A stretch of 64,000 bases of DNA, taken from a virus. The notes under the pieces were generated by a model, which worked only from the letters and a program-made list of their open reading frames with translations, was not told the origin of the DNA and made no database searches. Where the stretch lies: IMG/VR virus record IMGVR_UViG_3300024517_000019, positions 1 to 64,000 of that record; one strand, given 5' to 3'. Below are positions 1-62,762 of this stretch, in pieces. Each line of letters starts with the position of its first letter. Within the stretch, counting starts at the first letter, position 1. A program made the translations under genes and the position numbers.

Positions 1-310
1 GTAGAGTTCGGTCTAGCCTGTCGAGTGCCCGCGAACTCTCGCCTAATGTTTGCTTGACACCTTGTGATACGATGTTGGCTTCCGCTGTAACTTTGATCGT
101 TTCCTGTTGCAGTTCTTTGTGATCTGCTCGCTGTTCACCCAAGTGCCCTAAGAACATCCTGACCAGTACGATCAGGGCACAAATCATGGGGATTTCGGTG
201 ACTAACTTGCCAATTATTCCGTCCATAACGCCCCCTGCTTCGCTCACTGCGGTTGCCATGCCAACTCGACCCAGTGCCCCTGTAGCGAGTATCAATAGTG
301 CTAGTTTCAT
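1..310 (-). CDS. small membrane protein, 3' end outside window
   Basis: This frame opens with ATG at 310 and runs off the left edge, so at least 103 residues are present. The ATG overlaps the TGA of the giant upstream gene as ATGA, which implies coupled translation. Residues 1-20 are hydrophobic (signal or first helix) and residues 41-58 form a second hydrophobic segment (IPMICALIVLVRMFLGHL). A polar, Gln/Glu-rich stretch likely to be coiled coil follows. Size and topology would suit a holin or spanin-like protein at the end of a virion block, but no family is recognised and the C-terminus is missing. Confidence 0.7.
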   Translation of the reverse strand, partial: MKLALLILATGALGRVGMATAVSEAGGVMDGIIGKLVTEIPMICALIVLVRMFLGHLGEQRADHKELQQETIKVTAEANIVSQGVKQTLGESSRALDRLDRTL

Positions 311-6300: not shown

Positions 6301-9300
6301 GCCTTTCTCTGTGGTGCGTGTCTCGCCTACCAGCATCGCATCGAATACTGACTTCAGATTAGGACTGACCTTCTTGGCCAGGGGTGTCCCCTTGATCGCC
6401 TTGTAGATTGCCTTCAACCATTCCTTGAACTTGGCGAACACCTTCTTCAGGGCTGAACTGGGGGCCTTGCCGTCCCTCAGGTATCGCTCAAAACCAGAGG
6501 CGAACTGTTCCTCTGCTTCTTCCGACCACACAATGCCATCCTGCTTCAGTTCAGCAGACGCTCTCTCCATCAGGTTCTTCGGCAGGGATCGCCTGAAGAT
6601 GTGCCCTAACTCATGGACTAGCGTTGATACGTCTGACGACTCGAAGGCGTGAAGGATCGCTTGGTTGTCTTTTGTGAACTCGACTGCACCACGCTTCTCG
6701 CCTCCGCGTCGCTGCTCAAGGATGTCGCTGATCACAATGTCAGCATGGTCGAATATGACGTAGTTAAAAGTTGCCTCGCCACCAGACGTGTGGCGAGAAG
6801 CCTGGTCAAAGTATTTGATGCCCCTGATTCCATGGTCAAGCAGATGAAGCGAGGCCTGCTTGGGTGACCACTTACTTTCTTCGTATCCCTCAAATTCTTC
6901 TTCCGTTTCCTCCACTACTAAGCTGCTTAGCCACTTGCCAACTTCCTGGCCTTCCACATTTTGCTCAAAGTAACGCTTGGCGTCCTCTCTTGCGTCATCC
7001 TCGCTCCGTCCGGCACCAACGGCATTCTTTTCACCGTCCACAACCTCATAAGCAGCCCACATCTGTGGTGCCACGTAGAGTTCGCGGGCGATGCTCTGGT
7101 AAATGGCTTTCCCTGTCGGGAGATCAAAGCGGACCGGGCCGCTTCCTTTTTCCAGGACGGAGGAACCACCCGCTCGGTTGGTCACTCCGCCGTCGGCGGT
7201 GTACCGTGGCAGAGGAGTGATTCCCGGTTTGCTCAGTCTGGGAACCTGCCCCATAACCGGAATAAGCCCGGCAGTCCTTGACCGCCTTCTGAGGTCGTGC
7301 ATTCCCTCTTCAACTTCGTCCCACTCTTTGCGGATAGCAATTCCTTCAGTCCCGTACTCCTCCCCTCCACGAGCAAGTAAGTCGTGATGGCGACGGGCAA
7401 GGCTATTGGCTCTTTCGTTTAAGTCATCTAAGTCCTTCGACATCGCCTGGTGGTCAGTGATGATCGGGGCCGAAGTACCCTGCAAGGCAGTTCTCACTTT
7501 TTTGCTCTGGCCATCCAGGGGCTTGTCCCACAGCAAGTAATCCTTCTGCTCTGGTGCCAATTCAACTTTGTAGAGCAGCCCGGAGTAGGGCTCTACGCCT
7601 GCATCCTTCATGTTCTTTGCTTCTGGGTGAGGGCTGAGCAATCTCTTCCGCCCTCCCTCCACAGCCATCCACTCAGAAGTGCCCTTGAACCCCATCTCTT
7701 TCATTTCTGGGGTAATCTGCTGAAAGCCCTCTCGCTCCACCTCTTCTACGTCAACCGACCATCTGCCGCCTTTGCCCTCATGGAACGCAAGGACCCTGTC
7801 GTAGCCTCCCCGTCCACGGATAATTCGGCCTGGAGTGTAGTACTCGCGGAGCTTCTCCATCGGCTGTTCACGGCCTCGGGATAGCCCCTCCTTGTAGGAT
7901 CTGCCAACCGCTTCTGCGTCAGCAAAATAGAGTCCCCAGCCATAAGTCTGGTTGCCTTCCCCTTCGCCGACATGGTCCAGCAAAAACTGTGGGAACGCCT
8001 GGTGGGATGGTGATCCGTGCCAGGCAGGGTGATAGAGAACGTCACCGCTCTCATCAACTTCACCACTCCGCTTGGCGGTGATCTTCTCGAAGAACTCGTC
8101 AGCAGGCCTGTTGTTTTCCTTCGCCCATTGCTCAGCCCTGGCATTGGCAATCTGCATCACTGCTTCGGACTGCTCTTTGCCAGCTATGGCCTCAATCTCT
8201 TGGGCTACTCGTGAAGCGTGAGCGGGGTCTTGTAGGGTGGTTCCGGCCTGTGTGGTGTGAGTGGGGCCGATATCGACACCAAAGACATCGGACAAATCGC
8301 TCGCAGCGAGCTTCTTGGAGGCGTCCCTGGAGGCGGAGGCTCTCTGCAACAGCTCCATTGCACGTTTGGCCTCCTTGAGACTCCCGTACTCGACGGTATT
8401 GGGGTCTGTCTCGTGAGGGCCAACTGTCTTGATCGGGGTATCGACGAACCACTTGCGACCCTTGCCGCCAATCATCCAAAGCTTTCCGTCACTGCCACGC
8501 TTGGTGTACGGCGTGTCAGAGTCAGGGTTGTACTCCCAGCCATCAGGCTGCATGTAGCCGTCAGTGTTGCCAGGGGACTTCTCCGTCCCTGGCTGAACTG
8601 GCTTCTGGGAACGGTCAGGAGTTCTCGACCAGACACCCGTCTCGCCCATCGCCTTGAACACTGACTCACCTGAGTCATCGATCAGGCCAAACGTCTTGAG
8701 TACCCTTTCCAGGAACTTACGTGCTCTACTAGCTGGCTTGGATGACCTCCACTTGGGGAAGGCATCTGCGACATCTTCCTCTTGCTCCCAATCCTCTTTG
8801 CTCTTGTCCGAGTACTTCTTGACCAGGGAGTTCCATTCTTGCTGAGTGACCATCCCTCCCTTACGCAGGAAGTGAACAACCTCGTGCTCAAGGGTATCGA
8901 CTCCAGCCAGCTGCTTACTGATCTTGATTATCGCCACACCGTGAATAGGGGCCTGGCCTTCGACAACCATGCCGATCATTCCACGGGTGCCAACCCCTTG
9001 CTGTCGCTCTTGGGGAGTAAGCTCACGACCAACCTGTCTCTCAACAGCTTGCCACTCAACCTCAGTCATGTCGCCCATATCAGAGACGAGTATGTCAAAG
9101 AACTTCCCGCCAGCCGTGTTAACTCTCCAGCCTGCGTTTCCTTCAAGCTCGTCTACCTTCCTTCCGGCTGCCAACTTGCGAACGTCCTTGGTGCCGATAC
9201 GGGGGTGGATTGCACCTTCAGCAGCAGGGGGACCAGCCGAGACGTTTCTCGCAGGTTGCACTGGTTCAGGCTGAGGCTGCTGCTCTTGCAGGCCGGGAGG

Positions 9301-11451
9301 GAGAACCTGTGGTGCTTCAGTCGGTGACTGCGGGAATGGCTCTGTGAAGTCAGGGAAGTCACGGGCATTGGCTTCACGCCTCTGCACATCCTGCTCTGCC
9401 GTCATTCCACCCCAGGGTTGCCTGTAGCCCTCTGGGTAGCCCACTTCGCCTTGGATTGGGCCAGGCTGTGGCACTGGAGTCTCAGCAGCCGGGGGCATCG
9501 TCTCTCGTAGCGAACCTGGGTCCTGAACCTGACCTGGTTGTGGAACCTGCTGCTCAGGGACTTGCTGTGGCACTGGTTCAGGGGCCACCTGCTCTGGAAC
9601 CTCTTCAGCAACCTCGGCCTCTCGCTCAGCAAGCTTCTCCGCTGCTTCTACCTGCCGCTGCAGTAACACTTCACGAGCGTTGGCCTTCGCATGCTCTGCG
9701 AACTTACGCCTCTCTTCAGCACTGTTCTTCAGATCCTTGCCGAAGATCACGCCTTGCTTTCTCAGGTCGCTCCGGGTGGGGTTGTCAGGCAGGTCCAAAG
9801 CAGCCTGCGGGAACTCAGCTGAAAACTGATACGGGTTGTCTGTCGTCTTGGGACCAACCCTTGCCGCTCCACCAATGATCGAGAAGGCAATCAACTCAGG
9901 AAGCATGTCGTCCCAAAGCTCTTTGCTGAAGGGACCGTACTTAATCAGCTTCCCAGGCTTTCCGTAGTCCTCCCTAACGCCAGTTAAGCCACGGGCTGCA
10001 TCACCAACCCACTCTTCCGCCATCTCCTCACCGACGCCATGGAAGCCGCCCTTCTTGAACACTCTCCCAAGGGCACCCATGTTTCCAAACGTGCTCCGCA
10101 GCCGACGACTGATCATTGTCGCCTTCAGGGCCTCCTTGAACGCTGTCACCCTGGCTATCTCAGGCAGGTATCTAAACGAAGCACCGAAGTGCTCAGACGC
10201 CATCTCAATGTAAGAGTCCAGTCCGCCTTTCATCATCGAGGTCATGAACGACTCGTCCACCTCGGAGGCCATGATCTGGCCCATCTGCTTCATCTCGTCC
10301 TTCGTCAGGGCGATCTTCGGTATCCGACGCTGAGATACGTTCTTCAGAATGTGCTGCGGGTTGGCAATCGTCTGCAGTGGGATACCACCAACCAGGCCAG
10401 CTGCGACCTTGCCACCTAACTTTGGTGCCCAGTGTGCTCCATGGGCAAACATGGCCTTAGCCGCTCCCCTGGCACCAACCTTCGACAGCCCTGCGATGGC
10501 TCCCCTGGTGGCACCCTTCATTCCAGCTTTGAAGATCGTTCCAGTGCCAATGAACTCCGCCATGAACGCTGGTGCATGAGAAACTATGTCACCAATCTTC
10601 CCCCACCGCCCCTTGGCCTTGTATCGTTCCTGCTGTGCGATGTATTGAGCAACAAGTCGATAGTCACTCTCGCCAGCCGTGCCCTTCTTCATCGCCTCCA
10701 CGGCACCTGTGAGCTGATATGCCTTTCCAGCGTCAAACAGTGATCCAGTGATCGGTGCTCGCCTGGACCAGTAGTTGATAGCCTTGCCCTCTTTGGCCTT
10801 CTCTTCCTTGAGAATCTTGGCAAACGTCTTAGCTCTCTGCTGCTCTTGCCAATACTTCAGGTCAGTGTTCTCAGCAGGCTTGTCGCCCCATAGCTTCTTT
10901 GGGTCGTACTCCATGTCTTGGAAGTACTGACCCTTGTTGTTGGCAGCGGGACGGTCCTGCTCTTCTTCGAGCCTGCCAATGTCACCCTTCTGCCGAAGGT
11001 AGGGGTCTCTGACGCGGACTTGGCCGTAGGGGTCAATGTAGACAGACCCACGCTTCATGTTCCGCCAGCCTCGGTGGCCAGATCCACCTGGTCCGTACTC
11101 CATCGTCGGAGGCTCAGCACCTACCAACTGCTCCTTGCTGGTGACCGGTTCCCAACCGCTCTGCTCCCACTGGTCAGGCTCTCTGGTGGATGGTTCAGGC
11201 CCTGGTTCAGGGACAGCTTCCAGTTCAGCTTGGGCTTTGCCAATGTCATGCCATTGCTGCTGTTGCTGCTGAGGTGACAGTGGAGCGGCAACTGGCTGTT
11301 GTGTTTGTGATTGGTCAACAGGCCAGTTGGCCCACTGCTGCTGCTCTGACGCAGCCGGAGTAACTGGTACTTGGGCTGCAGGGGGCTGGTTAGGATCAAT
11401 CTCAGTCCAACCAGCCTTCAGCCAACGGTTGTCTGTTAGTTGGTCGGGCAC
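307..11451 (-). CDS. giant polyvalent virion protein with ART-like and metallopeptidase-like domains
   Basis: This 3,714-residue protein starts at GTG 11451 behind AGGTGA. The first 150 residues are Pro/Gln-rich. A Gly/Ala-rich hydrophobic stretch follows at about 290-370. HEVVH at 856-860 begins a metallopeptidase-like segment. WHGSPSHQ at 1144 with GWGLYFAD and a distal NYVIFDHADI matches the ADP-ribosyltransferase domain of phage polyvalent proteins, ending near 1545. Further HExxH motifs lie at 1613 (HELGH) and 2409 (HEVGH). The C-terminal 800 residues, with a hydrophobic segment near 3300, resemble large-polyvalent-protein-associated regions such as LPD38. Known polyvalent proteins are thought to be injected with the DNA and act on the host; that role here is inference. 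Position downstream of the tail genes fits an internal or ejected virion protein. Catalysis by each motif is unproven. Confidence 0.85.
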   Translation of the reverse strand: MPDQLTDNRWLKAGWTEIDPNQPPAAQVPVTPAASEQQQWANWPVDQSQTQQPVAAPLSPQQQQQQWHDIGKAQAELEAVPEPGPEPSTREPDQWEQSGWEPVTSKEQLVGAEPPTMEYGPGGSGHRGWRNMKRGSVYIDPYGQVRVRDPYLRQKGDIGRLEEEQDRPAANNKGQYFQDMEYDPKKLWGDKPAENTDLKYWQEQQRAKTFAKILKEEKAKEGKAINYWSRRAPITGSLFDAGKAYQLTGAVEAMKKGTAGESDYRLVAQYIAQQERYKAKGRWGKIGDIVSHAPAFMAEFIGTGTIFKAGMKGATRGAIAGLSKVGARGAAKAMFAHGAHWAPKLGGKVAAGLVGGIPLQTIANPQHILKNVSQRRIPKIALTKDEMKQMGQIMASEVDESFMTSMMKGGLDSYIEMASEHFGASFRYLPEIARVTAFKEALKATMISRRLRSTFGNMGALGRVFKKGGFHGVGEEMAEEWVGDAARGLTGVREDYGKPGKLIKYGPFSKELWDDMLPELIAFSIIGGAARVGPKTTDNPYQFSAEFPQAALDLPDNPTRSDLRKQGVIFGKDLKNSAEERRKFAEHAKANAREVLLQRQVEAAEKLAEREAEVAEEVPEQVAPEPVPQQVPEQQVPQPGQVQDPGSLRETMPPAAETPVPQPGPIQGEVGYPEGYRQPWGGMTAEQDVQRREANARDFPDFTEPFPQSPTEAPQVLPPGLQEQQPQPEPVQPARNVSAGPPAAEGAIHPRIGTKDVRKLAAGRKVDELEGNAGWRVNTAGGKFFDILVSDMGDMTEVEWQAVERQVGRELTPQERQQGVGTRGMIGMVVEGQAPIHGVAIIKISKQLAGVDTLEHEVVHFLRKGGMVTQQEWNSLVKKYSDKSKEDWEQEEDVADAFPKWRSSKPASRARKFLERVLKTFGLIDDSGESVFKAMGETGVWSRTPDRSQKPVQPGTEKSPGNTDGYMQPDGWEYNPDSDTPYTKRGSDGKLWMIGGKGRKWFVDTPIKTVGPHETDPNTVEYGSLKEAKRAMELLQRASASRDASKKLAASDLSDVFGVDIGPTHTTQAGTTLQDPAHASRVAQEIEAIAGKEQSEAVMQIANARAEQWAKENNRPADEFFEKITAKRSGEVDESGDVLYHPAWHGSPSHQAFPQFLLDHVGEGEGNQTYGWGLYFADAEAVGRSYKEGLSRGREQPMEKLREYYTPGRIIRGRGGYDRVLAFHEGKGGRWSVDVEEVEREGFQQITPEMKEMGFKGTSEWMAVEGGRKRLLSPHPEAKNMKDAGVEPYSGLLYKVELAPEQKDYLLWDKPLDGQSKKVRTALQGTSAPIITDHQAMSKDLDDLNERANSLARRHHDLLARGGEEYGTEGIAIRKEWDEVEEGMHDLRRRSRTAGLIPVMGQVPRLSKPGITPLPRYTADGGVTNRAGGSSVLEKGSGPVRFDLPTGKAIYQSIARELYVAPQMWAAYEVVDGEKNAVGAGRSEDDAREDAKRYFEQNVEGQEVGKWLSSLVVEETEEEFEGYEESKWSPKQASLHLLDHGIRGIKYFDQASRHTSGGEATFNYVIFDHADIVISDILEQRRGGEKRGAVEFTKDNQAILHAFESSDVSTLVHELGHIFRRSLPKNLMERASAELKQDGIVWSEEAEEQFASGFERYLRDGKAPSSALKKVFAKFKEWLKAIYKAIKGTPLAKKVSPNLKSVFDAMLVGETRTTEKGTTLEPKTVEPANQTWVDRIKSVARAPEIPKDATPSDIHAVARRLGFDGVVTDAPKYLEEYEGNVSRVLDKLEQSPILESEAEDGDVAILNHLSQTEYVLRGPIRSQSEESGYYIPEVELAVVLQQEFPAATNEHIDAAQRAVVAEIEERDWGKKPRAVIFAHYLDPAQWEVSEDTGFLELVGAEEEAKPEPKSESKPVKKAKAKPAKKPKLSPAAQELIERRATARERQKDVRFFDLLKKDARSIKGGKSDATVKLTRPGEAKVQDQVDVSGELVEGTVLIHPDMEWNGTENQWVPTKKFQMTHVPTKSGIGYVGTRSEVKQHLAFMKRMGADFSKIKKLKDIDSGLLSKMQRVNSSWQTDSLQHLEEAEREEMYSHVGAKETDVDADIILDADDLGATGGLRLKETGAELVKTLSKDVPEFSYNPVFTVSAAKKLVFRDGYTYELEPEAFNLHEDELTAGQTIGINLEDLGIKRATPQQVVVGVLKDAGFIRVSRFKGGIKAVWATSKPVIAWTGQKPARTGDTVKVWGSGESWTVQGQGGVAQTKAREAVEKIKWKQPAQEESDHPQSDEQAMESPHYPERIHNIYADIRKAEEAETDEQSDADQYFAGDSQSGAQITPDGPTVNLREPDNNKAPYSSHHDIIKTMSIWFDVPIFENYISNRKALAVFKVAPEIIRRRNKASGDIMIHAHEVGHVLDKRTNIVSSAPTDARVSLRDLDYDQRVKVVLKNGSEVRGVYRSGNTDSIVVAVQDAGKNWIDTTIARSDIGNFRSIGRRIHEGFAEFVRLYWSNPDYLGRNYPAFSAHFQDWIEKNPEMGKKIKDMQGHTLNWISAGFEKRVDDQMWWGDWWTSKMPRELGQTTFDWGVQKAGGMTRSLYTALKDENDVLRVFENERRKRGGKKLKPGETAKEVAEVMNYTGPSNARQAIEGEVFSPRNNQPIGPTFEQLVKREVIDNEMTAEHAQQLFDALEIDEDINKVEIESVNMRGIHKVLGWSRKKYRKWSEFAASLQAIEMWNKTDAKGNATPVQPGITLEDATQFVEKYDNPVWRQAALDLKKFNDAMTFASAHAGVISLLEAKRIVDSHNNYVPMYRQIDQSQKIPKSIGGAKLFSSTQLFKRRHGSGNRIIDPMVSTIRKTIKMYSRSNEVYLTKTIADQALHTGMKGPGGFVHELQPKNVPTQFNVSEIWPSIEKIMLENGISQEDLENMDPDSLTQTLNIWRPDLFNNGADPVLLLYDTASQYETDEDGNITGLKKMKPHLFWFRPDLYEAVKRTDQAVLPNVVGKVFSAITTTFRAGAVTMSPAFAVGNALVDWITFQVQREEDIPEYILDIIKTDAADRTPEEDLQYTDFLRGNASTSFLARERILSTGLGRSMYRAVGRGKAWVRPIQAILSYAWSEANFMAGLEQDVLVAQYKAAGGELAHFQGLDRNLAKVIMSDLRSINDSRLKSLAGNVTNAMLRPGDTIRQFIGLSEVASRFAEFTQSLRNQGWDRARIAKEGAVPKAVLITAARAAADVTVNFSRMGTIGRKINRAVPFWNARWEGVDKAVRTVRRGKQFAIPIPYGRKNEDTGSRETQWMNIMSQELFWRLAQTIIPIGLAYWFMYKDDDWRKEQPVWQDGHWIFPDENGQTKYRLKMPYEWSYLLRIITSVLDATQENDPEAMSELEKELGFDGPISDFGEGFFKDMFPMPRVAVVHPLFEVAANKDTFTGRPIETRTMLTENREDRYTDRTSELAKKMAGYVGLSPVQLDHLLEGYSGGMTSRLSRAAAGVGKRFKGEKVPASESISQNLISSAVTLKQNYTRTDREFYKRMKKVEQEMNSAEKHGKDATDMTRRFSEMKRYATLIADIRKSAKGIKDRDDRFAIMRHVTGIAREAMGKKPLKLYPTPWAGGTVAGKVTRPVEKYIGTLVRTFTAPPYKRKAGEAMARYEKRRKERELKSQWALQILKRTGLSPEELAGLYTGHIKKGAGSTRRFGDRGITAFGRRINQLLRVKFE

Positions 11452-40798: not shown

Positions 40799-41149
40799 AT
40801 GACTGAGAGACCATGCGTTGAAGAAGAGATTCTCAGTAATCTCGACAGTCTTATCCATGAGATGAAGCAATACAACGACTGTAAGGCATGGGTCGAGAGA
40901 TTGAAGGAGATGCGTGAATCAGTCGTGGAGGGGGCCGACCAATGGGTCAGGACCATCAGCGGAGAGAAGGCCATACGGGATAGCAACAGGCGTCAACTCG
41001 ACGATGCCCTTGAGACTGCCGAGAAGTGGGAGAAGGACTACTCAGTATTGGTTAACCAGCACCAGACGGCCTGCGATGGGTTCAAGATCCTCGTCTCTGA
41101 CCCAAGAGGAACCATGTACGAAACCCCCAACTTCCCACAAAGCGAATGA
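40799..41149 (+). CDS. unknown coiled-coil protein heading MoxR-VWA operon
   Basis: ATG 40799 follows TAGGGAGAATGAA. The 116-residue product is nearly all helix (EEEILSNLDSLIHEMKQYND, LEEA-like heptads near 60-90) with two cysteines. It is the first gene behind copy B of the 42-nt element. Its role is unknown; an adaptor for the ATPase module is a possibility from position only. Confidence 0.65.
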   Translation: MTERPCVEEEILSNLDSLIHEMKQYNDCKAWVERLKEMRESVVEGADQWVRTISGEKAIRDSNRRQLDDALETAEKWEKDYSVLVNQHQTACDGFKILVSDPRGTMYETPNFPQSE

Positions 41150-41150
41150 C

Positions 41151-41188
41151 CCATGGTGTCACTCCGGTTCGCCAGAGTGACCCGATGG
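41151..41188 (+). other. leader hairpin before MoxR gene
   Basis: CCAT-GTCACTC pairs with GAGTGAC-ATGG around CGGTTCGCCA. It sits 33 nt before the MoxR ATG and is followed by ACTCGCTACAGGGAGAAACC. No T-run is present. Confidence 0.6.
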
Positions 41189-41220
41189 CTTATTTACTAC
41201 TCGCTACAGGGAGAAACCAA

Positions 41221-42339
41221 ATGAGTGTAGCAACGCTAGAACTGCAGGAAGTGTTCAGCAAGGTGCGAGATCAGCTCAACGATAAGCTGATCGAAAGGGA
41301 AGGTGAGGTGGATGTCGTACTGACGGCCATGGCCTGCCGGGAGCATGCTCTGTTCGTAGGGCCACCTGGTACAGCCAAGTCCATGCTCTTGGACGCTATC
41401 GCTGAACTGGTAGACGGACAACGATTCCTTTACCTGCTCACCAAGGAAACGGATCAGGACGAGCTGTTCGGCCCTGTGAAGCTGTCTGAGCTGAAGAAGG
41501 ACCTCTACGTCAGGAACATCGACAAGTCGTTAGCGACGGCACACGTGGCCTTCCTGGACGAGTTGTTCGAAGGCTCCAGTGGTGTGCTCAACTCAGTCCT
41601 CAAGGTGCTGAATGAGCGTACCTACAACAACGGCAACACTACCGTCCAGTGCCCGCTACTGACCTGTGTGGCTGGTAGCAACAAGTGGCCCCATGGTCAC
41701 AAGTCTGGCAAAGAGGTTGCTGCCCTGTTCGACAGGTTCCTGTTTCGTAAGCAGGTCAAGCCAATCGGTACTGACCGTGGCCTGTCCAAGCTGCTGTGGG
41801 AGCCCAGCCTGGAGATCGAGCTGAAGGAAAGGCTGACCCCTGCTCAAATGGACGAGGTGGTTGAGGCCGTCAAGATGGTGCCTTGGAAGAGTGACGCCAA
41901 GGACTGCTTCCAGTCGATCATCAAGGAGATCCGCCGTCAGGGCGTGACTCCTGGTGACAGACGAATGAGGAAGGCAGTCAACGCTACTCAGGCGTTTGCC
42001 TGGATCAATGGTGCCCTTGAAGTTGAAGATGAGCACCTTGAGATCCTGGCTCATGTCCTTTGGGAAGACCCTGAGGAACAGCCTGCGGTGGTCACCAAGG
42101 TCATTGGCAAGTTGGCCAACCCAGTTGGGCTTCAGGTCAACACCCTACTGATCGAAGCTGACCAGATTGTCAGCGAGACAGACGCCACTCAGCTGGACCA
42201 GGCAGCCATGGCGACTAAGAAGCTTGGTGAGATTGTGAAGAAGCTCGATAAGCTCAAGGGCGACAAAGCCAGCAGGGCAACCGAGTATGTTCGTAACAAC
42301 CAGGCCGATATTCACCGACGGGGAATCGACGCGATCTGA
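41221..42339 (+). CDS. MoxR-family AAA+ ATPase
   Basis: ATG 41221 follows CAGGGAGAAACCAA. The 372-residue product has Walker A GPPGTAKS at residues 47-54, Walker B FLDELF at 111-116 and a sensor-1 segment (VAGSNKWP) near 160, the order of MoxR/RavA ATPases. These enzymes remodel protein complexes with a VWA partner, and a VWA gene lies two genes downstream in the same operon. The N-terminal 46 residues are short, as in the family. In a phage the substrate is unknown; head assembly, host takeover or defence are all open. Confidence 0.85.
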   Translation: MSVATLELQEVFSKVRDQLNDKLIEREGEVDVVLTAMACREHALFVGPPGTAKSMLLDAIAELVDGQRFLYLLTKETDQDELFGPVKLSELKKDLYVRNIDKSLATAHVAFLDELFEGSSGVLNSVLKVLNERTYNNGNTTVQCPLLTCVAGSNKWPHGHKSGKEVAALFDRFLFRKQVKPIGTDRGLSKLLWEPSLEIELKERLTPAQMDEVVEAVKMVPWKSDAKDCFQSIIKEIRRQGVTPGDRRMRKAVNATQAFAWINGALEVEDEHLEILAHVLWEDPEEQPAVVTKVIGKLANPVGLQVNTLLIEADQIVSETDATQLDQAAMATKKLGEIVKKLDKLKGDKASRATEYVRNNQADIHRRGIDAI

Positions 42340-42342
42340 TCC

Positions 42343-42445
42343 TTGTAGCGAGGGTCGAAGTAGCCGTGTGGTTACTGCTCGCAGTCCCTGTCTCCACTCC
42401 ATCCTGGCAGGGGCTGCCTGTTGTACTCATCCTAACTCGCTACAA
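42343..42445 (+). promoter_or_regulatory. leader with 10-bp perfect inverted repeat
   Basis: TTGTAGCGAG (42343-42352) and CTCGCTACAA (42436-42445) are perfect inverses that would close a 103-nt stem-loop ending just before the AGGGAGA ribosome site at 42447. An inner CCTG / CAGG pair is possible. The right arm is the CTCGCTAC box shared by other leaders. Confidence 0.6.
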
Positions 42446-42459
42446 AGGGAGACTTGATT

Positions 42460-42828
42460 ATGGATCAGCATGAGGCCGAAGGGTTAGTCAGACAACGTGC
42501 CGATGAGTTCAGGGACGAATTCACCATACGGCTCAGGAAGCTGTGTGAGGACTTCCAGCCTGAGACGGAAGCTACGGTCGAAGGCATGATGAACGCATCT
42601 GCTGCTATCCATGGCCGGGGTGAAGCTGCCCTGGTGATGGCGATAGCGTCTCTGGGGTTCACTGCTGGCTTTAGCCGTGAGAAGTCGATCAATCTGCTGG
42701 AGGCTGTCTGGAAGACAGTTGCCGAAGAGGCAGCGGCGGAGTTCAGCACCCAGCTCTCTAGGGCAGAGGGCCTGAGTGACCTGCTGCAGCAGTTCAAGAA
42801 CAGGGGAGGCAATTGCAGTGACAACTAA
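42460..42828 (+). CDS. unknown helical protein in MoxR-VWA operon
   Basis: ATG 42460 follows AAAGGGAGACTTG. The 122-residue product is helical, with a hydrophobic core helix around 55-75 (GEAALVMAIASLGFTAGF) that need not be a membrane segment. It overlaps the next gene by 11 nt. It lies between the MoxR and VWA genes, so a role in the same process is likely but unspecified. Confidence 0.7.
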   Translation: MDQHEAEGLVRQRADEFRDEFTIRLRKLCEDFQPETEATVEGMMNASAAIHGRGEAALVMAIASLGFTAGFSREKSINLLEAVWKTVAEEAAAEFSTQLSRAEGLSDLLQQFKNRGGNCSDN

Positions 42829-43129
42829 AGTCAAGACCTTCAGGCAGTGGCACAGTGCCTGGAGTGAAATGCTTGTTGACCTGGACAAGAGGATCTCCAC
42901 GTCAGAGGGACTGGAGAGCAAGAGCACTGAAGAGCAGCAGGCTTATGCTTTTGCTCGATCTTACGCTGGGCTGGAAATGGCAATTGACAGCTTGGCCAAC
43001 ATGGCTGGAGCACCACAGAAGGAGGCGGATGAGATGTGCAATCTCATCTGCGAGATCCTGCACAAGAAGGCAGTTATGAACGGAGTGTGTGAACCACGGA
43101 AACCTGAGGGAGAACGCTATGGAGAATGA
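42818..43129 (+). CDS. unknown helical protein in MoxR-VWA operon
   Basis: GTG 42818 follows GGGGAGGCAATTGC. The 103-residue product is helical (SLANMAGAPQKEADEMCNLI) with no hydrophobic segment. It overlaps both neighbours by 11 nt, including the VWA gene, which implies coupled production. No motif is recognised. Confidence 0.65.
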   Translation: MTTKVKTFRQWHSAWSEMLVDLDKRISTSEGLESKSTEEQQAYAFARSYAGLEMAIDSLANMAGAPQKEADEMCNLICEILHKKAVMNGVCEPRKPEGERYGE

Positions 43130-44582
43130 AGAATCTGAAGTAGACGTTGATCAGCTCATCTCTGATCTTCTTGAAAACAAGCCTGTTGGCGTATCGGTTA
43201 TCGACGACGAGTACGACGATGACATGCCCGGTACGTTGCAGATACCTGAGAGCCCAACTGCTCTCGTCCTGGATAGGTGGTCTCTTCGTATCGGTGAAGA
43301 GATCCTTGAGGACAACCCTGGCATCAAGGACATCCTGGCTAAGGAGCCTGGCAAGAAGGTTAAGCCTAAGGAGTACGACGACATGATCCTCAAGGCAGCG
43401 GACTTTCATGCTGCTGCTTTTGAGCCTGTCCCTGAGCTTGCAGAGAACCCGACTGACAAGAAGATTGCTCTGTACATGGAGCAGTTGATGTCCACCCCTG
43501 AGTTCCAGCAGCTTCACCATGAAACCTGTTTGGACCCAGTTGCTAGTGAGATGGCCTGTGCCCACTTCGCTAAAGGCTGGAAGGTTGTCGTTGAGACTGA
43601 CCCTGGCGAAGGGGACGGTGGTGATGGCGACGGTGACGGTGGCTTCAAGGAGGGACTGCGAAACCTCAAGGCTGCCAGTGACGCCCTCAAGGACGCTGAC
43701 GCTGAAGTGAACGAGTGGCGTGACATGGAGAAGATGTTCGGCATGGGTGGTGGTGGTTCCATTGCCAGCAAGATGCCAAAGGATGTGATCCAGAAGTGGT
43801 TCCAGAAGATCAAGGACAACGAACAGCTTCGTAAGATCCTTGAGTTCGCTGGTAGCTTCAGGCGTCTAGCACAGGCTAAGCAGCGTCAGAAGATGATCCA
43901 CGGCATGGACGAGATCTCTGGCATTGAGATGGGGAACAAGATCCCTCGCTTGCTGACTAGTGAGAAAGCTCGCCTTGCTGACGAGGACCTTGAGTGGCTG
44001 ATGCTCAAGAAGATTGTTGACCGTATGGCTCGAATGAAAAAGCTACGGTCAATCGAAGACGAGATCCGGGGTGCCATTGTCTGCATCGTGGATGAGTCTG
44101 GTTCGATGAACGGCCATGCTATTGCTCAGGCCAAAGCAATGGCACTGGCACTTTACTGGGTAGCTCAGCATCAGAAGCGATGGTGCTGCCTGATTGGCTT
44201 CTCTGGTGCAACCGAGGGTAACTTCCTTGTACTGCCACCTGAGGAACCGAAGCAGGATGAGCTACTTGAATGGCTTGCCCACTTCTACGGAGGTGGCACA
44301 GATATGGACGTACCTCTCAATGAGCTACCTGCGAAGTGGGATTCTCTGGGGACTCCCAAGGGACGGACTGACATCATCCAAATAACAGACTGCTGTTGTC
44401 ATGTCCCTGAGGCGACTGCCAAGAGCTTCAATAAGTTCAAAGAGGAACGTGAGGTGAAGATGACGACTATCGTCATCGGCGGAGACGAGGCTGGGCCACT
44501 TGAAGCTGTCAGCGACAGGACCTACAGCTGTGCTGACTTGAGTCTAGACAATGATGCGGTCGGTGAGTCACTGTCGATTTAG
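43119..44582 (+). CDS. VWA-domain protein, ViaA/CobT-like partner of MoxR ATPase
   Basis: ATG 43119 follows TGAGGGAGAACGCT. The 487-residue product has an acidic N-terminal third, a Gly/Asp-rich linker near 165-175, a helical middle, then a VWA domain from about residue 318. Its metal site is intact: DESGSM starting D325, the GGGTDMDV Thr, and QITD. The helical-region-then-VWA order is that of ViaA, CoxE and CbbO partners of MoxR ATPases. Such pairs activate or remodel metalloenzymes or membrane complexes. What it acts on in this phage is unknown. Confidence 0.85.
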   Translation: MENEESEVDVDQLISDLLENKPVGVSVIDDEYDDDMPGTLQIPESPTALVLDRWSLRIGEEILEDNPGIKDILAKEPGKKVKPKEYDDMILKAADFHAAAFEPVPELAENPTDKKIALYMEQLMSTPEFQQLHHETCLDPVASEMACAHFAKGWKVVVETDPGEGDGGDGDGDGGFKEGLRNLKAASDALKDADAEVNEWRDMEKMFGMGGGGSIASKMPKDVIQKWFQKIKDNEQLRKILEFAGSFRRLAQAKQRQKMIHGMDEISGIEMGNKIPRLLTSEKARLADEDLEWLMLKKIVDRMARMKKLRSIEDEIRGAIVCIVDESGSMNGHAIAQAKAMALALYWVAQHQKRWCCLIGFSGATEGNFLVLPPEEPKQDELLEWLAHFYGGGTDMDVPLNELPAKWDSLGTPKGRTDIIQITDCCCHVPEATAKSFNKFKEEREVKMTTIVIGGDEAGPLEAVSDRTYSCADLSLDNDAVGESLSI

Positions 44583-44855: not shown

Positions 44856-44928
44856 GCCAGTGTAGCTCAGTTGGAAGAGCAACTGTTTTGTGAACAGTAG
44901 GTCGTCAGTTCGAATCTGACCTCTGGCC
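44856..44928 (+). tRNA. tRNA, anticodon reads TGT (Thr) by stem pairing
   Basis: The 73-nt cloverleaf has acceptor GCCAGTG / CTCTGGC with one T-T mismatch, D stem GCTC / GAGC, anticodon stem ACTGT / ACAGT, and T arm GTCAG-TTCGAAT-CTGAC. The seven-base loop TTTGTGA places TGT at 34-36 (threonine, codon ACA). G at position 37 and C at 73 are unusual for Thr. GTG (His) one base over would need a broken stem. No CCA is encoded. Confidence 0.85.
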
Positions 44929-44951
44929 CTGGAAGAGATGAGAGGCATCGT

Positions 44952-57474: not shown

Positions 57475-57550
57475 GGGTCACGTCAGGCACGGCAAGGCTT
57501 GCTTAGCCTAGGTGCGGTATGCCAACGGCATGGTATGGAATTTTCACAAG
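57475..57550 (+). repeat. GGNNN pentamer array with 3' box, copy 1
   Basis: GG recurs mostly every five bases (TCAGGCACGGCAAGGCT, then GGTGCGGTATG). The array ends with a box, GGTATGGAATTTTCACAA at 57532-57550, directly followed by GGGAGAAACGG and ATG. The same box ends the arrays at 58352 and appears inside two others. Confidence 0.65.
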
Positions 57551-57561
57551 GGAGAAACGGA

Positions 57562-58230
57562 ATGGACTATCGGTTTAAGCTTACGGGGAAAACCCCGCTG
57601 ATCATGCACGCCGACAACATCGCCGCTGGTGATGAACTCAACGCTTGGCGAAAGGACCCAGCGAACAAGGACCTGAGCGTAAAGGGGGATGATCGCAGCC
57701 CTCCGTGGACCTGGTCCACCTACCTCTACTCAGATGGGGATGTCATCACGGTGCCCTCCGAGACCATCATGGCCTGCCTCAGGGACGCCGGGAAAACGGT
57801 CAAGATCCAAGGCAACAAGACCTTCAAGTCAGCCACCCAGTCTCAGTTGCTGATCAAAGAGATTGACCTGCCTCTCTTGGTTGACGGTGCTACTGTAGCG
57901 ATCGCCGACATCCAAAAGTTGCTCGACAAACCCTTCCCTGAGCAAGCGGCTGGAGTCGAGGAATTCGGGTTTAGTTTGAATCTGAAACGGGTCAAAGTCG
58001 CCAGTTCCAAGAATCTCAGGGTTCGCCCTATTTTCGATACCTGGTCTGTGGAGGGGAACCTGACGGTTCGAGACGATGCTCTCCTGACCGAGGACAAAGT
58101 GAAGCTCCTGTTTCGAATTGCTGGCGAAGAAAAGGGCTTGCTCGATTGGCGGCCTGGAGCACCCTGCCCAGGTCCGTATGGAACTTTTTCAGTGTCGATC
58201 ACCAAGGTCTGTTCGGCCGGGGTTAGCTAG
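57562..58230 (+). CDS. unknown protein, 222 residues
   Basis: ATG 57562 follows AAGGGAGAAACGGA. The product begins YRFKLTGKTPLIMHADNI, continues GDDRSPPWTWSTYLYSDGDV and later RVRPIFDTWSVEGNLTVRD and LLDWRPGAPCPGPYG. Such phrases recur in many uncharacterised phage proteins that lie near recombination genes. The fold looks beta-rich with a conserved basic RxRPxF segment that might bind nucleic acid. I do not know its function. Confidence 0.75.
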   Translation: MDYRFKLTGKTPLIMHADNIAAGDELNAWRKDPANKDLSVKGDDRSPPWTWSTYLYSDGDVITVPSETIMACLRDAGKTVKIQGNKTFKSATQSQLLIKEIDLPLLVDGATVAIADIQKLLDKPFPEQAAGVEEFGFSLNLKRVKVASSKNLRVRPIFDTWSVEGNLTVRDDALLTEDKVKLLFRIAGEEKGLLDWRPGAPCPGPYGTFSVSITKVCSAGVS

Positions 58231-58370
58231 GGCAGGGTGGGCTCTGGTCTGGCATGGTAAGGACTTTATAAATCACTTAGGGATTGGGTTCGGCAAGCTA
58301 GGCTCCGGTGCGGTGGTGCATGGTGAGTCACGTCATGGCATGTCCGGGTGAGGTAAGGAATTTTTCACAA
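58231..58370 (+). repeat. GGNNN pentamer array with 3' box, copy 2
   Basis: The array runs through the whole intergenic gap. A box-like unit GGTAAGGACTTTATAAATC at 58256 sits in the middle, and GGTAAGGAATTTTTCACAA at 58352-58370 ends it directly before GGGAGAAC and ATG 58381. No gene is present. T-rich boxes alternate with GG-periodic tracts. Confidence 0.65.
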
Positions 58371-58380
58371 GGGAGAACAA

Positions 58381-58857
58381 ATGTTCGAGATGAAGTACTA
58401 CGTCAAAAAGGAAGTTGACCAGCTTATGTCCCTCACTGAGGACATGGAACGAGGCACTCTCGTTACCTACGAGGATATTGAGAACCTGATTGGCTTCAAC
58501 AGGGAAGATTCACCGCAATGGCCAAAGGTCATTCGGCTCTGGCGTAAGAGAATGATGCAAGAACGGGGCATCTACCCCAAATCAGAGCGTGGCATAGGCT
58601 ACAGGCTGCCAGAGGTTGATGACCAGATCGACCACAGCATCACAATGGCCAGGAACTCCCGAAAGCGACTGGGGGTGGCTGGTGTCCTCTCTGCCATGAT
58701 TAGGGACGAGGACCTGGATGAGTACCAGACACGGAGGGTCATTGCAGTTCAGGAAGTGGTGGATGAAACTCAATCCAGGTTCAATATCGAGGCAGCCAAG
58801 CGGAAAAAATGGTTCTCCGCTCAGCCCAGGCTGCCTCGTCCTGGTGACTCAAGTTAG
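58381..58857 (+). CDS. winged-helix-like protein of unknown function
   Basis: ATG 58381 follows AAGGGAGAACAA. The 158-residue product is helical, with GTLVTYEDIENLIGFNREDS then WPKVIRLWRKRMMQERGI and YRLPE, which fits a winged helix. The C-terminal half is basic. It is enclosed by two GG-periodic arrays. It may regulate the flanking genes; evidence is positional only. Confidence 0.65.
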   Translation: MFEMKYYVKKEVDQLMSLTEDMERGTLVTYEDIENLIGFNREDSPQWPKVIRLWRKRMMQERGIYPKSERGIGYRLPEVDDQIDHSITMARNSRKRLGVAGVLSAMIRDEDLDEYQTRRVIAVQEVVDETQSRFNIEAAKRKKWFSAQPRLPRPGDSS

Positions 58858-59040
58858 GCATGGTGTGCTCCGGTGAGGCTCGCTCCGCCACGCTATGGTG
58901 CGGTGTGGTCAGGCATGGTATGGACTTTTCGCAAATCAATCTTGGTTGGATATGGCAAGCTGAGGCATGTCATGCCAAGGTGAGGCAAGGACTTTTTACG
59001 AATCAATTCGGGCACGGTTCGCTTTGGCTCGGTCGTGCTG
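58858..59040 (+). repeat. GGNNN pentamer array with two boxes, copy 3
   Basis: The array starts right after the preceding stop. Boxes GGTATGGACTTTTCGCAAATC (58917) and GGCAAGGACTTTTTACGAATC (58984) each follow a GG-periodic tract. Here no ribosome site or clear gene follows the last box. The open frame across it (58860-59117) reads the array itself and is not credible. Confidence 0.6.
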
Positions 59041-59117
59041 GGTTCGAAATCAACACCGAAACACTTACGGCCATTGCCGACACCGCAGCCGATGAGGACT
59101 GTGGCTGTGGACCTTAA

Positions 59118-59671
59118 CTGCACTTTCCCCATTGACGAAAGGAACCCTGATTAGCCATACTCCCCGACGTCAAGTCACTAGTGGAAATGACGATCCACTG
59201 ATGGTGACGGCGATTACAGTTTTGGTATGATTCGGATTCACGAAGGCAAGTCCTGTGCTCTAACACAGGCAACTGTACCGCCGCCGATCATCGTGGATTT
59301 CGTCCCCACGCTCTGATCGGCATTTTTTATGGACAGCGAACACAGGCCCTGACTGCCAAAGGGCCAACAGTGCAGGGGCCTACCGTTGCGACGACAAGCC
59401 TGCATGGACAAATCCGATATCCCGTGAAAGTTGTGGTTGAAACCCACGGGACGGGGGCTGTGATTTCAATTGATCCCAGCAGCCCTGATTAGATTCGGTG
59501 CCGAGGACCCTTCGTTGGGCGAATGCGAGGCTTTATATCGCGGTGAGCCCTAGGGACCCTTATGCACACTCGTCCCCTGTTACGTTCTGTGTCCGATACA
59601 AGTGTGACGCTTGGTGGTGAGGCGTGTACCTCGCTGTCCTTTTAAGAAACCACTGGCGAAAGGAACCGACG
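59118..59671 (+). other. 550-nt gene-free region, hairpin-rich, with terminator
   Basis: No credible gene is present. A terminator-like hairpin at 59283-59329 (GCCGATCA / TGATCGGC, then ATTTTTT) ends a first part holding TATGAT (59225) and a CCTGTG / CACAGG hairpin. Beyond it, CCCGTG / CACGGG (59422-59452) and GGGCTG / CAGCCC (59455-59485) are strong hairpins. GCGAAAGGAACC occurs at both ends (59138 and 59655). One or two structured RNAs, or an operator region, are possible. Confidence 0.45.
59283..59329 (+). terminator. Rho-independent terminator in gene-free region
   Basis: GCCGATCA pairs with TGATCGGC, enclosing CGTGG / CCACG, and is followed by ATTTTTTA. A short transcript starting near the TATGAT at 59225 and ending here would be about 100 nt, a possible small RNA. 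Confidence 0.75.
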
Positions 59672-59749
59672 ATGGGATCGTCTCGTCGCACCGTAAGAAA
59701 GGCCCTGCCATCAGAGCAGCGGAGAAACTGGAGAAATCATGAAGGTTGA
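59672..59749 (+). CDS. 25-residue basic peptide
   Basis: ATG 59672 follows CGAAAGGAACCGACG. The product MGSSRRTVRKALPSEQRRNW plus five residues is very basic. Its end overlaps the next start by 11 nt. It may be a leader peptide that couples translation to the operon, or a spurious frame. Confidence 0.4.
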   Translation: MGSSRRTVRKALPSEQRRNWRNHEG

Positions 59750-59936
59750 GTACAAGGGGATGGTGGTCCTGGATGACGACGAGCCAGGACTGGGGATCAG
59801 TAACGGCAAGCTGACTGTTGGTGCTGGGGATGAGGGCAATGAGTGCCTGGTTGAGTTCACTGCTCAAGAGACAGACATCATCAGGGACATGCTGCTATCG
59901 CTGGAAGGGAGGAAGCAATGGACACAGAGCACATAG
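59739..59936 (+). CDS. unknown 65-residue acidic protein
   Basis: ATG 59739 follows TGGAGAAATC. The product has a strand-rich N-terminus (VEYKGMVVLDDDEPGLGI) and a helical end (TDIIRDMLLSLEGRK). It heads the paralog-array operon and overlaps the first paralog by 19 nt. Function is unknown. Confidence 0.65.
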   Translation: MKVEYKGMVVLDDDEPGLGISNGKLTVGAGDEGNECLVEFTAQETDIIRDMLLSLEGRKQWTQST

Positions 59937-60202
59937 AGTTCGCCATGGGACTGTGCGACCTCTACGCCAGGGAGAAGAAAACGAATTGCACTTTTTGCAT
60001 TGCAGGCAAATCTTTCACGCAACACTTCATCAAGAAGTTCGGGAGGCACAAGAGGTACGAATTGAGTGGTTGGAGCAGGGACATGCGAGCTGTCGTGGGC
60101 CATCAGCAAGGCCTCACAGACGAGAACGGCTACAGGTGGCGTTACCTGTGCCCATTGCACCTGAAGATGATCCTCAGGCAGTACCTGGAGAAGCAACCAT
60201 GA
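59918..60202 (+). CDS. tandem paralog family, member 1
   Basis: ATG 59918 follows GGGAGGAAGCA. The 94-residue product has the family ends: N-terminal IEFAMGLCDLYAREKK (the C-D-x-Y helix) and C-terminal YLCPLHLKMILRQYLEK. The middle is variable and includes a second cysteine pair (CTFC). It overlaps member 2 by 4 nt. No known family. Confidence 0.75.
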   Translation: MDTEHIEFAMGLCDLYAREKKTNCTFCIAGKSFTQHFIKKFGRHKRYELSGWSRDMRAVVGHQQGLTDENGYRWRYLCPLHLKMILRQYLEKQP

Positions 60203-60489
60203 TGACCAGGGAGCAAGTGGAGTACGTCATCACACGGTGCGACCAGTACATCAAGGCCAGGCACAAGACCGTACGTGGCTGCTGCTTTGGAACCGGCGAC
60301 AGACTGAGCCTGACCGGCAGCCTTGCCGTCAAGTTCGGGACACGTCCAGGTCTCTCATGGAGCTACGCCCTAGGCAGCGTCATCAGGACTGAGTGCCAGG
60401 TTCACGGGTCCTGGCGGGACATGTGCCCCATTCACCTGAAAGAGATCCTTACTAAGTACCTGGAGAAGACACTGGAGGAGAAACTGTGA
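60199..60489 (+). CDS. tandem paralog family, member 2
   Basis: The start is ATGATG overlapping member 1. The 96-residue product repeats VEYVITRCDQYIKARHK at the N-terminus and MCPIHLKEILTKYLEK at the C-terminus. The middle has GCCFGTGDR and a Trp-containing strand. It is the closest relative of member 1. The GTGA overlap couples it to the zinc-finger gene. Confidence 0.75.
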   Translation: MMTREQVEYVITRCDQYIKARHKTVRGCCFGTGDRLSLTGSLAVKFGTRPGLSWSYALGSVIRTECQVHGSWRDMCPIHLKEILTKYLEKTLEEKL

Positions 60490-60860
60490 AGGTGAAAATG
60501 ATTGAAGGCATGAGGCCAGTTCCCTGCCTCCTGTGTGCCGGTGACAAAACATACAGAGGCTGGGAAATGACAGGCCCAACTGGGGCCGTGTTCCTCTGCG
60601 ACTATTGCATGGTTTATTCAGTAGAGGGGATTGGACAGATCAACGGGTGCGACACGAAAAGCACCAGGGCCGGCGTGAAAGCCAAAGCAAACACCTCTCC
60701 CCACAAGTGCGGCTTCTGCGAACTGACCAGCGAAATCACCTGGACTGTTGGCAAAGATTCTTTCGCATTAACCGCCTGCCTTGCCTGTGTGAAGACTATG
60801 AACGAACAGGTTTACGCTCAGAGCAAGGGATACCAAATGATTCCGAGGGCCGACTCATGA
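60486..60860 (+). CDS. double CxxC zinc-finger protein within paralog array
   Basis: GTG 60486 overlaps member 2 as GTGA. The 124-residue product has four CxxC motifs: CLLC, CDYC, CGFC and CLAC, spaced as two zinc fingers joined by a basic linker (KSTRAGVKAKANTSPHK). The two halves look like an internal duplication. It interrupts the paralog series, so it may act with it. Confidence 0.75.
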   Translation: MKVKMIEGMRPVPCLLCAGDKTYRGWEMTGPTGAVFLCDYCMVYSVEGIGQINGCDTKSTRAGVKAKANTSPHKCGFCELTSEITWTVGKDSFALTACLACVKTMNEQVYAQSKGYQMIPRADS

Positions 60861-61216
60861 CCGACACCCTAAGCCTGGCGGAAACCAAAGCAGCGATCAG
60901 AAGTTGCGACCACTACGCAAAGGCAGGTGAGAAGGACTTGTCGAAGTGGCACGTAGGAACCAAGCCAATCAGGCTAGATCCAATCGGTGCCATCCTGAGG
61001 TCACGTGGTGTCAAGCTGGATATCGTCGGCGAATCGTATGAACCCAGCATGCCAGAGTCTCACGAGAACACAGAGTTGGGTGTGGACGGGTCACTGTTCA
61101 TGACACTGTCAGGTGTGGAAATGCCAAAGCCGGGTGACTGGATGGACAGTTGCCCTCTGCTGGTCAAGCAATACCTGGTTAAGCATCTAAACAAACTCAA
61201 GGGAGAGCACCTTTGA
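60857..61216 (+). CDS. tandem paralog family, member 3
   Basis: ATG 60857 overlaps the zinc-finger stop as ATGA. The 119-residue product has LSLAETKAAIRSCDHYAKAG at the N-terminus and WMDSCPLLVKQYLVKHLNK at the C-terminus. The middle (about residues 35-95) is unlike members 1 and 2. The start of member 4 is a TTG overlapping its TGA. Confidence 0.75.
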   Translation: MTDTLSLAETKAAIRSCDHYAKAGEKDLSKWHVGTKPIRLDPIGAILRSRGVKLDIVGESYEPSMPESHENTELGVDGSLFMTLSGVEMPKPGDWMDSCPLLVKQYLVKHLNKLKGEHL

Positions 61217-61659
61217 CAAATTCAAATTCCGAAAGGCGACGATGGGAAGCCAGGCCCAAGCAGAAGCCGCAACCGCTAACACTGGCGGAAACGAAGGTGG
61301 CGATTGAGGCCTGTGATAGCTACATCAGTGCAGGCCACATCAACTTCAGGAAACACACTGCAATCACAGGCATGGTGGAGACAGGACAGCCTGGGGTAGC
61401 CGTCTACCTGATGTACGGGTCGAAGTTTGAGACCCATGGCCGAAATGGCGAACTGCTGGAGCTGGTCTTCACTGGACAACAGGCAAAAGACAGGTTCCAC
61501 GACGGACCTAACTTCTCATCTGTTATGTGTACGGCACTAGAAATTGGCGGCATGGAGGATGATAGGAGTGGTCCTTCCTTCTACATCCGTCGCTGCCCTG
61601 TCGAAGTCAAGGACGCCCTGCTGAAGTACAAGCACATTACGTTCGGGGAGAACTCATGA
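61213..61659 (+). CDS. tandem paralog family, member 4
   Basis: TTG 61213 overlaps member 3's TGA (TTTGA). The 148-residue product has a basic 20-residue lead, then LTLAETKVAIEACDSYISAG and, at the end, FYIRRCPVEVKDALLKYKH. The middle includes VAVYLMYGSKFETHG and a low-similarity insert. It overlaps member 5 by 4 nt. Confidence 0.75.
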   Translation: MTNSNSERRRWEARPKQKPQPLTLAETKVAIEACDSYISAGHINFRKHTAITGMVETGQPGVAVYLMYGSKFETHGRNGELLELVFTGQQAKDRFHDGPNFSSVMCTALEIGGMEDDRSGPSFYIRRCPVEVKDALLKYKHITFGENS

Positions 61660-62054
61660 GCGAGAAATACCCTCTCACTGAGTGTGAGGTGCATGCCTGC
61701 CTCATGTCTGCCGAGTTGTTCATTCAGCACAAGAAGCCGGACACGAGGGAGGTCCTGTTGGTCAGTGGCGACCTGAGCACCATCTACCCACCAGGTGCCG
61801 TTGCCAAGCTCCGTGGCTACACCTTTGGGTTTAATGCGGCTGGCATACTGATGACCACCAATAAGCCCGACGACACCGAAGACCACCTCATCTTCGACGA
61901 CATTGCCAACGCCCTGGCTCAGGGAGGAGCAAGCTGGATCGTGGGCTGGGCTCACATGACCCCACAGGCCTTCAAAGAGGCCATGCTCGCCTACAAAGAG
62001 ATCGTCAAACGAAAGGGGAAGCGAAAACATGTCACTAACACTCAGGGAGGTTAA
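61656..62054 (+). CDS. tandem paralog family, member 5 (divergent)
   Basis: ATG 61656 overlaps member 4's stop as ATGA. The 132-residue product keeps the leading YPLTECEVHACLMSAELFIQ segment but has lost the C-D pair, and its C-terminus (MTPQAFKEAMLAYKEIVKRK) keeps the helix but not the Cys-Pro. It overlaps member 6 by 26 nt. It is the most divergent copy. Confidence 0.7.
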   Translation: MSEKYPLTECEVHACLMSAELFIQHKKPDTREVLLVSGDLSTIYPPGAVAKLRGYTFGFNAAGILMTTNKPDDTEDHLIFDDIANALAQGGASWIVGWAHMTPQAFKEAMLAYKEIVKRKGKRKHVTNTQGG

Positions 62055-62418
62055 TGCTTGCCTCAAGTCCTGCGATCACTACATCAACGCAAGGCAGCTA
62101 AGCATGTCAGATGACGTTGCTTTGAAGGATGACATTGAGACAGCAGAAGCGGCACTCGCAGTGGCGATCATGAGGGGCAGAGAGATGAGGGTCGAATGCT
62201 GGTCTGTCACGTCCACAGGCAGGAATCAATGCAATGACGTGTTGAGCCTGGCCTACAAGGACACACTGGACGCACTGCTCGCTGGTGGGCTGATCCGTGA
62301 TGACGCTGCTGGCTGGTACTGCGAATGCCCGGTGCTACTGCAGCAGTGCTTTCGCAAGTACAAGGACAAACTACTCAAGGAAAGGAGAAGGAATGCTAAC
62401 GCCTCAGGTCTTCGTTGA
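62029..62418 (+). CDS. tandem paralog family, member 6
   Basis: ATG 62029 lies inside member 5, after AAAGGGGAAGCG. The 129-residue product has LTLREVNACLKSCDHYINAR at the N-terminus and WYCECPVLLQQCFRKYKDK at the C-terminus, the clearest match to the shared ends. The middle contains VAIMRGREMRVECWSVTS. Its end overlaps the next short gene by 26 nt. Confidence 0.75.
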   Translation: MSLTLREVNACLKSCDHYINARQLSMSDDVALKDDIETAEAALAVAIMRGREMRVECWSVTSTGRNQCNDVLSLAYKDTLDALLAGGLIRDDAAGWYCECPVLLQQCFRKYKDKLLKERRRNANASGLR

Positions 62419-62515
62419 CAGCCAGGTCGTGGAGGTGCATCACTCAGGACGATCGATGGCTTCCCTAAAACCTCCTGGCTTGTTCAATGCCCCGTGTACC
62501 TCAAGCAAACAATGA
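62393..62515 (+). CDS. unknown 40-residue peptide
   Basis: ATG 62393 follows AAAGGAGAAGGA, the same leader as the gene at 62553. The product MLTPQVFVDSQVVEVHHSG plus a Pro/Ser-rich tail has no clear fold. It overlaps member 6 by 26 nt. The good ribosome site is the main support. Confidence 0.5.
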   Translation: MLTPQVFVDSQVVEVHHSGRSMASLKPPGLFNAPCTSSKQ

Positions 62516-62552
62516 GACGCTACAGAGACAACCTCATCGCAAAGGAGAAGGA

Positions 62553-62762
62553 ATGCCGAAAAGGAACGTCTTCAACCCTGAAGGAAACGAGTGGACCGAC
62601 TCAACCATCATTGGACAGCTAAGGCGACTGGAGGCCTTCTGGCCTACCGACCTGACGCTCAAGGTTGATCCCGCTACTGGTAGACTCAAAGTGGTGAGCA
62701 AGGTGGTCACCGAAGAGTTCCCGAACACTGAGATCTACCGAATACCAATGGAGAAATGGTGA
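62553..62762 (+). CDS. unknown 69-residue protein
   Basis: ATG 62553 follows AAAGGAGAAGGA. The product has a charged helix and two strands (DLTLKVDPATGRLKVVSKVV). Its TGA overlaps the next start. No family is recognised. Confidence 0.6.
   Translation: MPKRNVFNPEGNEWTDSTIIGQLRRLEAFWPTDLTLKVDPATGRLKVVSKVVTEEFPNTEIYRIPMEKW

Follow-up and report, generated by a model that had tools for sequence, protein, structure and literature searches.

A tandem array of six paralogous small-protein genes downstream of a VIPR-type locus in a phage genome

The array and its genomic surroundings

The window analysed here comprises bases 1-64000 of a 66,369-base IMG/VR virus record. According to the ORF list, six paralogous overlapping reading frames of 94-148 amino acids, all on the + strand, lie at positions 59918-62418. 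These are the six consecutive genes to which a sequence-only reading had drawn attention, and all of them are present, overlapping end to start. From left to right, the array is preceded by a Vipr homologue, a probable accessory gene, a gap of about 880 nt and a 65-aa gene. The features are as follows.

57476-59045: VIPR-type locus, comprising a Vipr homologue and a probable vap gene, with GGYNN runs before, between and after both
57562-58230: Vipr homologue (phrog_4652; SUSP1 Vipr, PDB 36pp)
58381-58857: probable vap (accessory) gene, with a homologue next to the Vipr gene in contig L053
58858-59738, + strand: gene-poor stretch of about 880 nt, the first ~190 nt being VIPR-type repeats
59739-59936, + strand: leader gene of the operon, 65 aa, from the ORF list; overlaps copy 1 by 19 nt
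59918-60202, + strand: copy 1, 94 aa, basic (pI 9.3), with the CD motif, a CTFC pair and CPLH
60199-60489, + strand: copy 2, 96 aa, basic (pI 9.1), with CDQY, CQVH and CPIH
60486-60860, + strand: inserted gene between copies 2 and 3, 124 aa, four CxxC in two zinc-ribbon-like units
60857-61216, + strand: copy 3, 119 aa, from ORF and profile
61213-61659, + strand: copy 4, 148 aa, TTG start, additional N-terminal tail of ~20 aa
61656-62054, + strand: copy 5, 132 aa, without both conserved cysteines
62029-62418, + strand: copy 6, 129 aa, AlphaFold2 model helix-helix-hairpin-helix-helix
~62393-62560, + strand: copy 7, decayed (profile E 3e-4)

By their ORF coordinates the junctions overlap by 4 nt (ATGA, GTGA or TTGA), or by 26 nt at 5/6 and 6/7, an arrangement that would be consistent with translational coupling. 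Codon use is phage-like in those array ORFs that were scored. Copies 1 and 2 are basic (pI 9.1-9.3) and copies 3-6 near neutral or acidic. The leader gene has no family match and is missed by the array profile, which places it outside the array family. The insertion of a four-CxxC gene after copy 2 was likewise read correctly from the sequence; this gene matches PF08274 below the cut-off. Its homology to the array family was considered and rejected, as the array profile and the protein do not match. Six intact copies do run to 62418 as first described, but the array continues beyond that point with the decayed seventh copy. There, the start codon and the otherwise intact C-terminal helix (SWLVQCPVYLKQTMRRYRDNLIAK) lie in different frames and the core is missing; seen in one assembly only, the frame change may be real or a sequencing error.

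To the right of the array follow two small genes, RusA (PF05866, E 4e-13), a 58-aa membrane-like protein and an integrase; array, RusA and integrase form a close-packed run on the same strand. A single tRNA-Thr(TGT) gene is located at 44856-44929, about 19 kb from the integrase. Elsewhere in the genome, positions 41146-44582 encode a MoxR-type AAA ATPase (PF20030, E 1.4e-48), two small proteins and a large protein weakly matching VWA, a set resembling a MoxR-VWA pair, here in a phage. The largest gene, at 307-11451 on the - strand, is an open frame of 3,714 aa, with a local match of 28% over 376 aa in the closest related record.

VIPR is reported to be an RNA-guided system used between phages, with the Vipr RAMP protein, vap and vrRNA as its components (2026 preprint, PMC13142463). 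The assignment of the upstream locus is based on the match of 57562-58230 to SUSP1 Vipr (PDB 36pp; E 2.7e-8 with a single sequence, 8.8e-12 with a profile) and on the GGYNN pentanucleotide runs. The + strand of the 66-kb genome has seven runs of six or more units, six of them at 57.4-59.1 kb, and the - strand has none; as the search for runs was programmed with the repeats already in view, these counts describe the repeats rather than test them. The seventh run, at 61369 inside copy 4, is probably due to chance. ORFs similar in appearance to the putative vap gene (58381-58857) are found in L054 and L055. Five further phage or MAG contigs (L053:7800-9420, L054:6714-8654, L055:1716-3450, L062:2001-2850, L063:1650-3150), which include Gordonia phage Trine and Escherichia phage tootiki, carry a Vipr gene accompanied on its own strand by GG-rich repeats of short period; measurement of the 5-nt period was confined to L053, L054, L055 and the window. 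About 0.9 kb separate the VIPR locus from the start of the array. In the gene-poor stretch before the operon, no significant RNA structure was detected at 59100-59740 (z -1.5). The same stretch holds an 18-nt near-repeat at 59129-59146 (CCATTGACGAAAGGAACC) and 59650-59667 (CCACTGGCGAAAGGAACC). A profile search found the array to be absent from the VIPR-bearing relatives L053 and L054, and array and VIPR are therefore not a fixed pair.

Homology and age of the copies

Profiles built from five copies recover the left-out sixth every time, with E values of 1.2e-5, 4e-11, 1.1e-9, 2.2e-11, 2e-5 and 3e-17 against 6,733 background ORFs, taken in six frames from this phage and from related records. 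The best ORF outside the family reaches only E >= 0.25, and every leave-one-out profile also picks the open frame 62419-62619, which belongs to the decayed copy 7 (E 1e-4 to 4e-3). On these profile scores, the six copies are confirmed as one homologous protein family, far beyond chance, in agreement with the repeated duplication proposed earlier. The copies are about 20-33% identical, and their ends 17-46%.

For the comparison of ends and middles, the proteins were cut at the motifs by eye, a placement which somewhat favours the ends in the shuffle test. N-ends and C-ends outscore shuffles in most pairs, the weakest being the pairs with copy 5. For the middles of pairs 4/6 and 5/6, only 2 of 1000 shuffles were as alike in each case; the remaining 13 pairs are not above shuffles. 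The sequence-only reading had described conserved ends with fully diverged middles: the first part holds, but copies 4/6 and 5/6 keep similarity in the core. Its N-terminal motif also needs correction, as the spacing is E[VT]-x6-C-D and not x5.

In most pairs the synonymous sites are close to saturation, so that dN/dS of ends against middles is uninformative and cannot show diversifying selection. In all-pairs counts, which use each sequence several times, identical residues share the same codon 48 times against 43.9 expected at the N-ends and 60 times against 56.3 at the C-ends. The excess at the ends is modest for copies 1/2 (P 0.014) and 3/4 (P 0.020), and the pooled middles give 64 observed against 52.8 expected (P 0.029), all these P values being uncorrected over ~30 tests. 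Such agreement, close to the expectation from codon usage, points to most duplications being old. For the neighbouring pairs 1/2 and 3/4, a more recent origin or partial conversion is possible and would fit their ends, which are 77-79% similar at the DNA level over 29-57 nt. Copy 2 is closest to copy 1, with 77% identical DNA over the C-terminal 57 nt, and 1/2 is the sole supported pair in a tree of the ends. Near-identical recent copies, as in an accordion array, were not found: identity is low and synonymous sites are near saturation.

The cysteine motifs differ between copies. Copy 1 has two CxxC/CxxH knuckles, copy 2 has them in part and copies 3-6 have none; copies 3, 4 and 6 retain C(D) and C(P) alone. 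Copy 5 has lost both conserved cysteines (SAELF, MTPQ), exactly as had been noticed for one member. This joint loss hints at paired action of the two residues, a weak indication given that it is a single event.

Search for relatives and structure models

The array family has no significant match in Pfam, PHROGs, NCBIfam, PADLOC or PDB sequences. A concatenated tblastn search (E <= 10) of INPHARED (50,697 phages) and PLSDB (72,556 plasmids) revealed no relative, while a control terminase fragment with the same X linkers was found. Pattern scans of IMG/VR with copy 2, with a three-copy alignment and with a degenerate CPxHLKxxLxxYL DNA motif gave no relative either; the five matches to the motif were short or unrelated reading frames. 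Such scans detect close relatives only, and a wider family may therefore exist.

We also applied the array profile to 28 partly related viral records, many of which are fragments possibly without the array region. No member was found in the 25 records with the same major capsid protein or RusA gene, nor in 3 further records (two with the Vipr gene and one with the terminase). In phages with common head and packaging genes, portal and terminase are 58-59% identical and no array member was detected; the closest record (L033), with a 77% identical major capsid protein, spans mainly structural genes. In other phages, no array member lies close to the RusA relatives, and no cultured member of this phage group was found. 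A set of 395 bacterial genomes of one phylum, chosen since one MAG contig carries a Vipr gene, contained no array relative; the lone match (E 0.0025) was an ORF antisense to a methyltransferase-like gene and was rejected. As neither the four family libraries nor PDB, BFVD and the phage and plasmid records gave a match, the description of the family as undescribed stands. By these comparisons we regard it as a real, undescribed family, so far known from one phage.

AlphaFold2 models were calculated with the six copies as the only input alignment. Copy 6 (pLDDT 82.9, pTM 0.79) is predicted to contain a helix at 5-20, a helix at 41-48, a hairpin at 53-62 and helices at 69-85 and 101-126. In copy 2 (pLDDT 68.3, pTM 0.64; residues 31-52 below 50), helices are predicted at 4-19, 40-45, 55-66 and 77-95. 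Judged by these helix positions, the order is the same in the two models, which cover two of the six copies, the middle of copy 2 being of low confidence. In the models, the conserved ends would correspond to the first and last helices. Foldseek returned no match at E <= 0.001 for copy 6 in PDB or BFVD, nor for copy 2 in BFVD. Unrelated folds, or hits of single members to different known families, had been named as grounds for abandoning the idea of one family; in the models, copies 6 and 2 instead share their helix order. We do not claim a new fold, as the structural comparison covered only PDB and BFVD.

Possible functions and comparison with known systems

The reading we favour, tentatively and at somewhat less than an even chance, is that the array encodes accessory proteins binding different host or rival-phage targets on a common two-helix frame. 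They would make up an orphan family of phage proteins, small and soluble, which arose by serial tandem duplication inside one operon of overlapping genes. In the models, the two conserved end helices could provide the common frame on which the variable middle is carried, and each middle might contact a separate partner, either a host defence or metabolic protein or the product of a competing phage. The operon, lying between the VIPR locus and the genes for RusA and integrase, would express all of them together. This reading is based on the leave-one-out homology, on the conservation of ends relative to middles and on the helix order common to the two models. In addition, six copies have stayed open despite near-saturated synonymous sites, which suggests that most are probably kept by selection. 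Their accessory status is suggested by the VIPR locus just upstream and by the lack of array members in phages with the same head genes or Vipr gene. The placement between a VIPR locus and recombination genes makes involvement in conflicts with the host or rival phages the leading guess, and this context weakly backs the idea of binders. The gain of counter-defence by amplification of small inhibitor genes in phages (PMC9391042, PMC13096335) also counts in its favour.

Several points speak against binders of separate targets. No orthologue was found in another phage, and hence no host-linked variation is evident. There is no match to any known inhibitor or defence-related family, variable middles are equally expected from relaxed constraint on surface loops, and the downstream neighbours belong to recombination and integration rather than to known counter-defence. 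The earlier proposal, that diversifying inhibitors are directed here at host defences or polymerase, is only a guess, and nothing indicates RNA polymerase.

Somewhat unlikely, in our view, is that the paralogues serve as subunits of a hetero-oligomer or as nucleic-acid-associated factors for the downstream recombination, replication or lysogeny module. The close packing with RusA and integrase on the same strand fits this proposal; such tight overlaps are suited to stoichiometric synthesis, basic proteins are encoded by copies 1 and 2, and a zinc-ribbon gene lies within the array. However, copies 3-6 are near neutral or acidic, and RusA genes of other phages do without a nearby array member.

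Alternatively, a zinc-binding ancestor resembling copy 1 (CTFC...CPLH) could have given rise to copies which later lost the metal site, with small zinc-dependent regulation left to copies 1-2 only. We consider this unlikely. CxxC plus CPxH in copy 1, CQVH and CPIH in copy 2 and the joint loss of the cysteines in copy 5, which suggests a pair, are set against copies 3, 4 and 6, with C(D) and C(P) but no knuckles, and against the lack of homology to the neighbouring zinc-ribbon protein; moreover, gain and loss of the metal site cannot be polarised.

A bolder version of the favoured reading, namely that the phage has expanded a new fold family into a set of binders, each directed at a different host or rival-phage factor from the same constant two-helix frame and deployed with VIPR as an inter-phage conflict island, seems quite unlikely. 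A duplication cluster that is neutral or in decay and has little function would agree with the decayed copy 7, the missing cysteines of copy 5 and the lack of orthologues; we find it improbable, as six ORFs are intact with phage-like codon use where scored despite near synonymous saturation, whereas copies as old as these would be expected to be broken if neutral. Chance resemblance or an assembly artefact is scarcely credible even for a single metagenomic record with an unverified assembly, since the leave-one-out E-values exclude chance and ends of 17-46% identity are not those of misassembled duplicates.

If the copies do bind different partners, nature would here have supplied a set of related binders on one frame that could help to find unknown host defences. 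If they do not, the array still offers an orphan family that is clean and open to testing, has a usable structure model and lies beside a recently described RNA-guided phage system.

Three known systems can be compared with the array. Zinc-ribbon small proteins (e.g. of the PF08274 type) resemble copy 1 with its CxxC...CPxH and the neighbour 60486-60860 with its four CxxC, whereas copies 3-6 have no knuckles and the array profile does not match the zinc-ribbon protein. With VIPR systems the array has in common the VIPR-like locus directly upstream, at ~57.5-59.0 kb; its proteins, however, are neither Vipr nor the probable vap product, and L053 and L054 do without it. The amplification of tifA (anti-ToxIN) in T4 and the SegB-driven amplification in T6 similarly involve a small accessory phage gene in several tandem copies (PMC9391042, PMC13096335). 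Those cases are recent segmental amplifications selected in the laboratory (PMC9391042, PMC13096335), whereas the copies of the array are mostly old and fixed in different forms.
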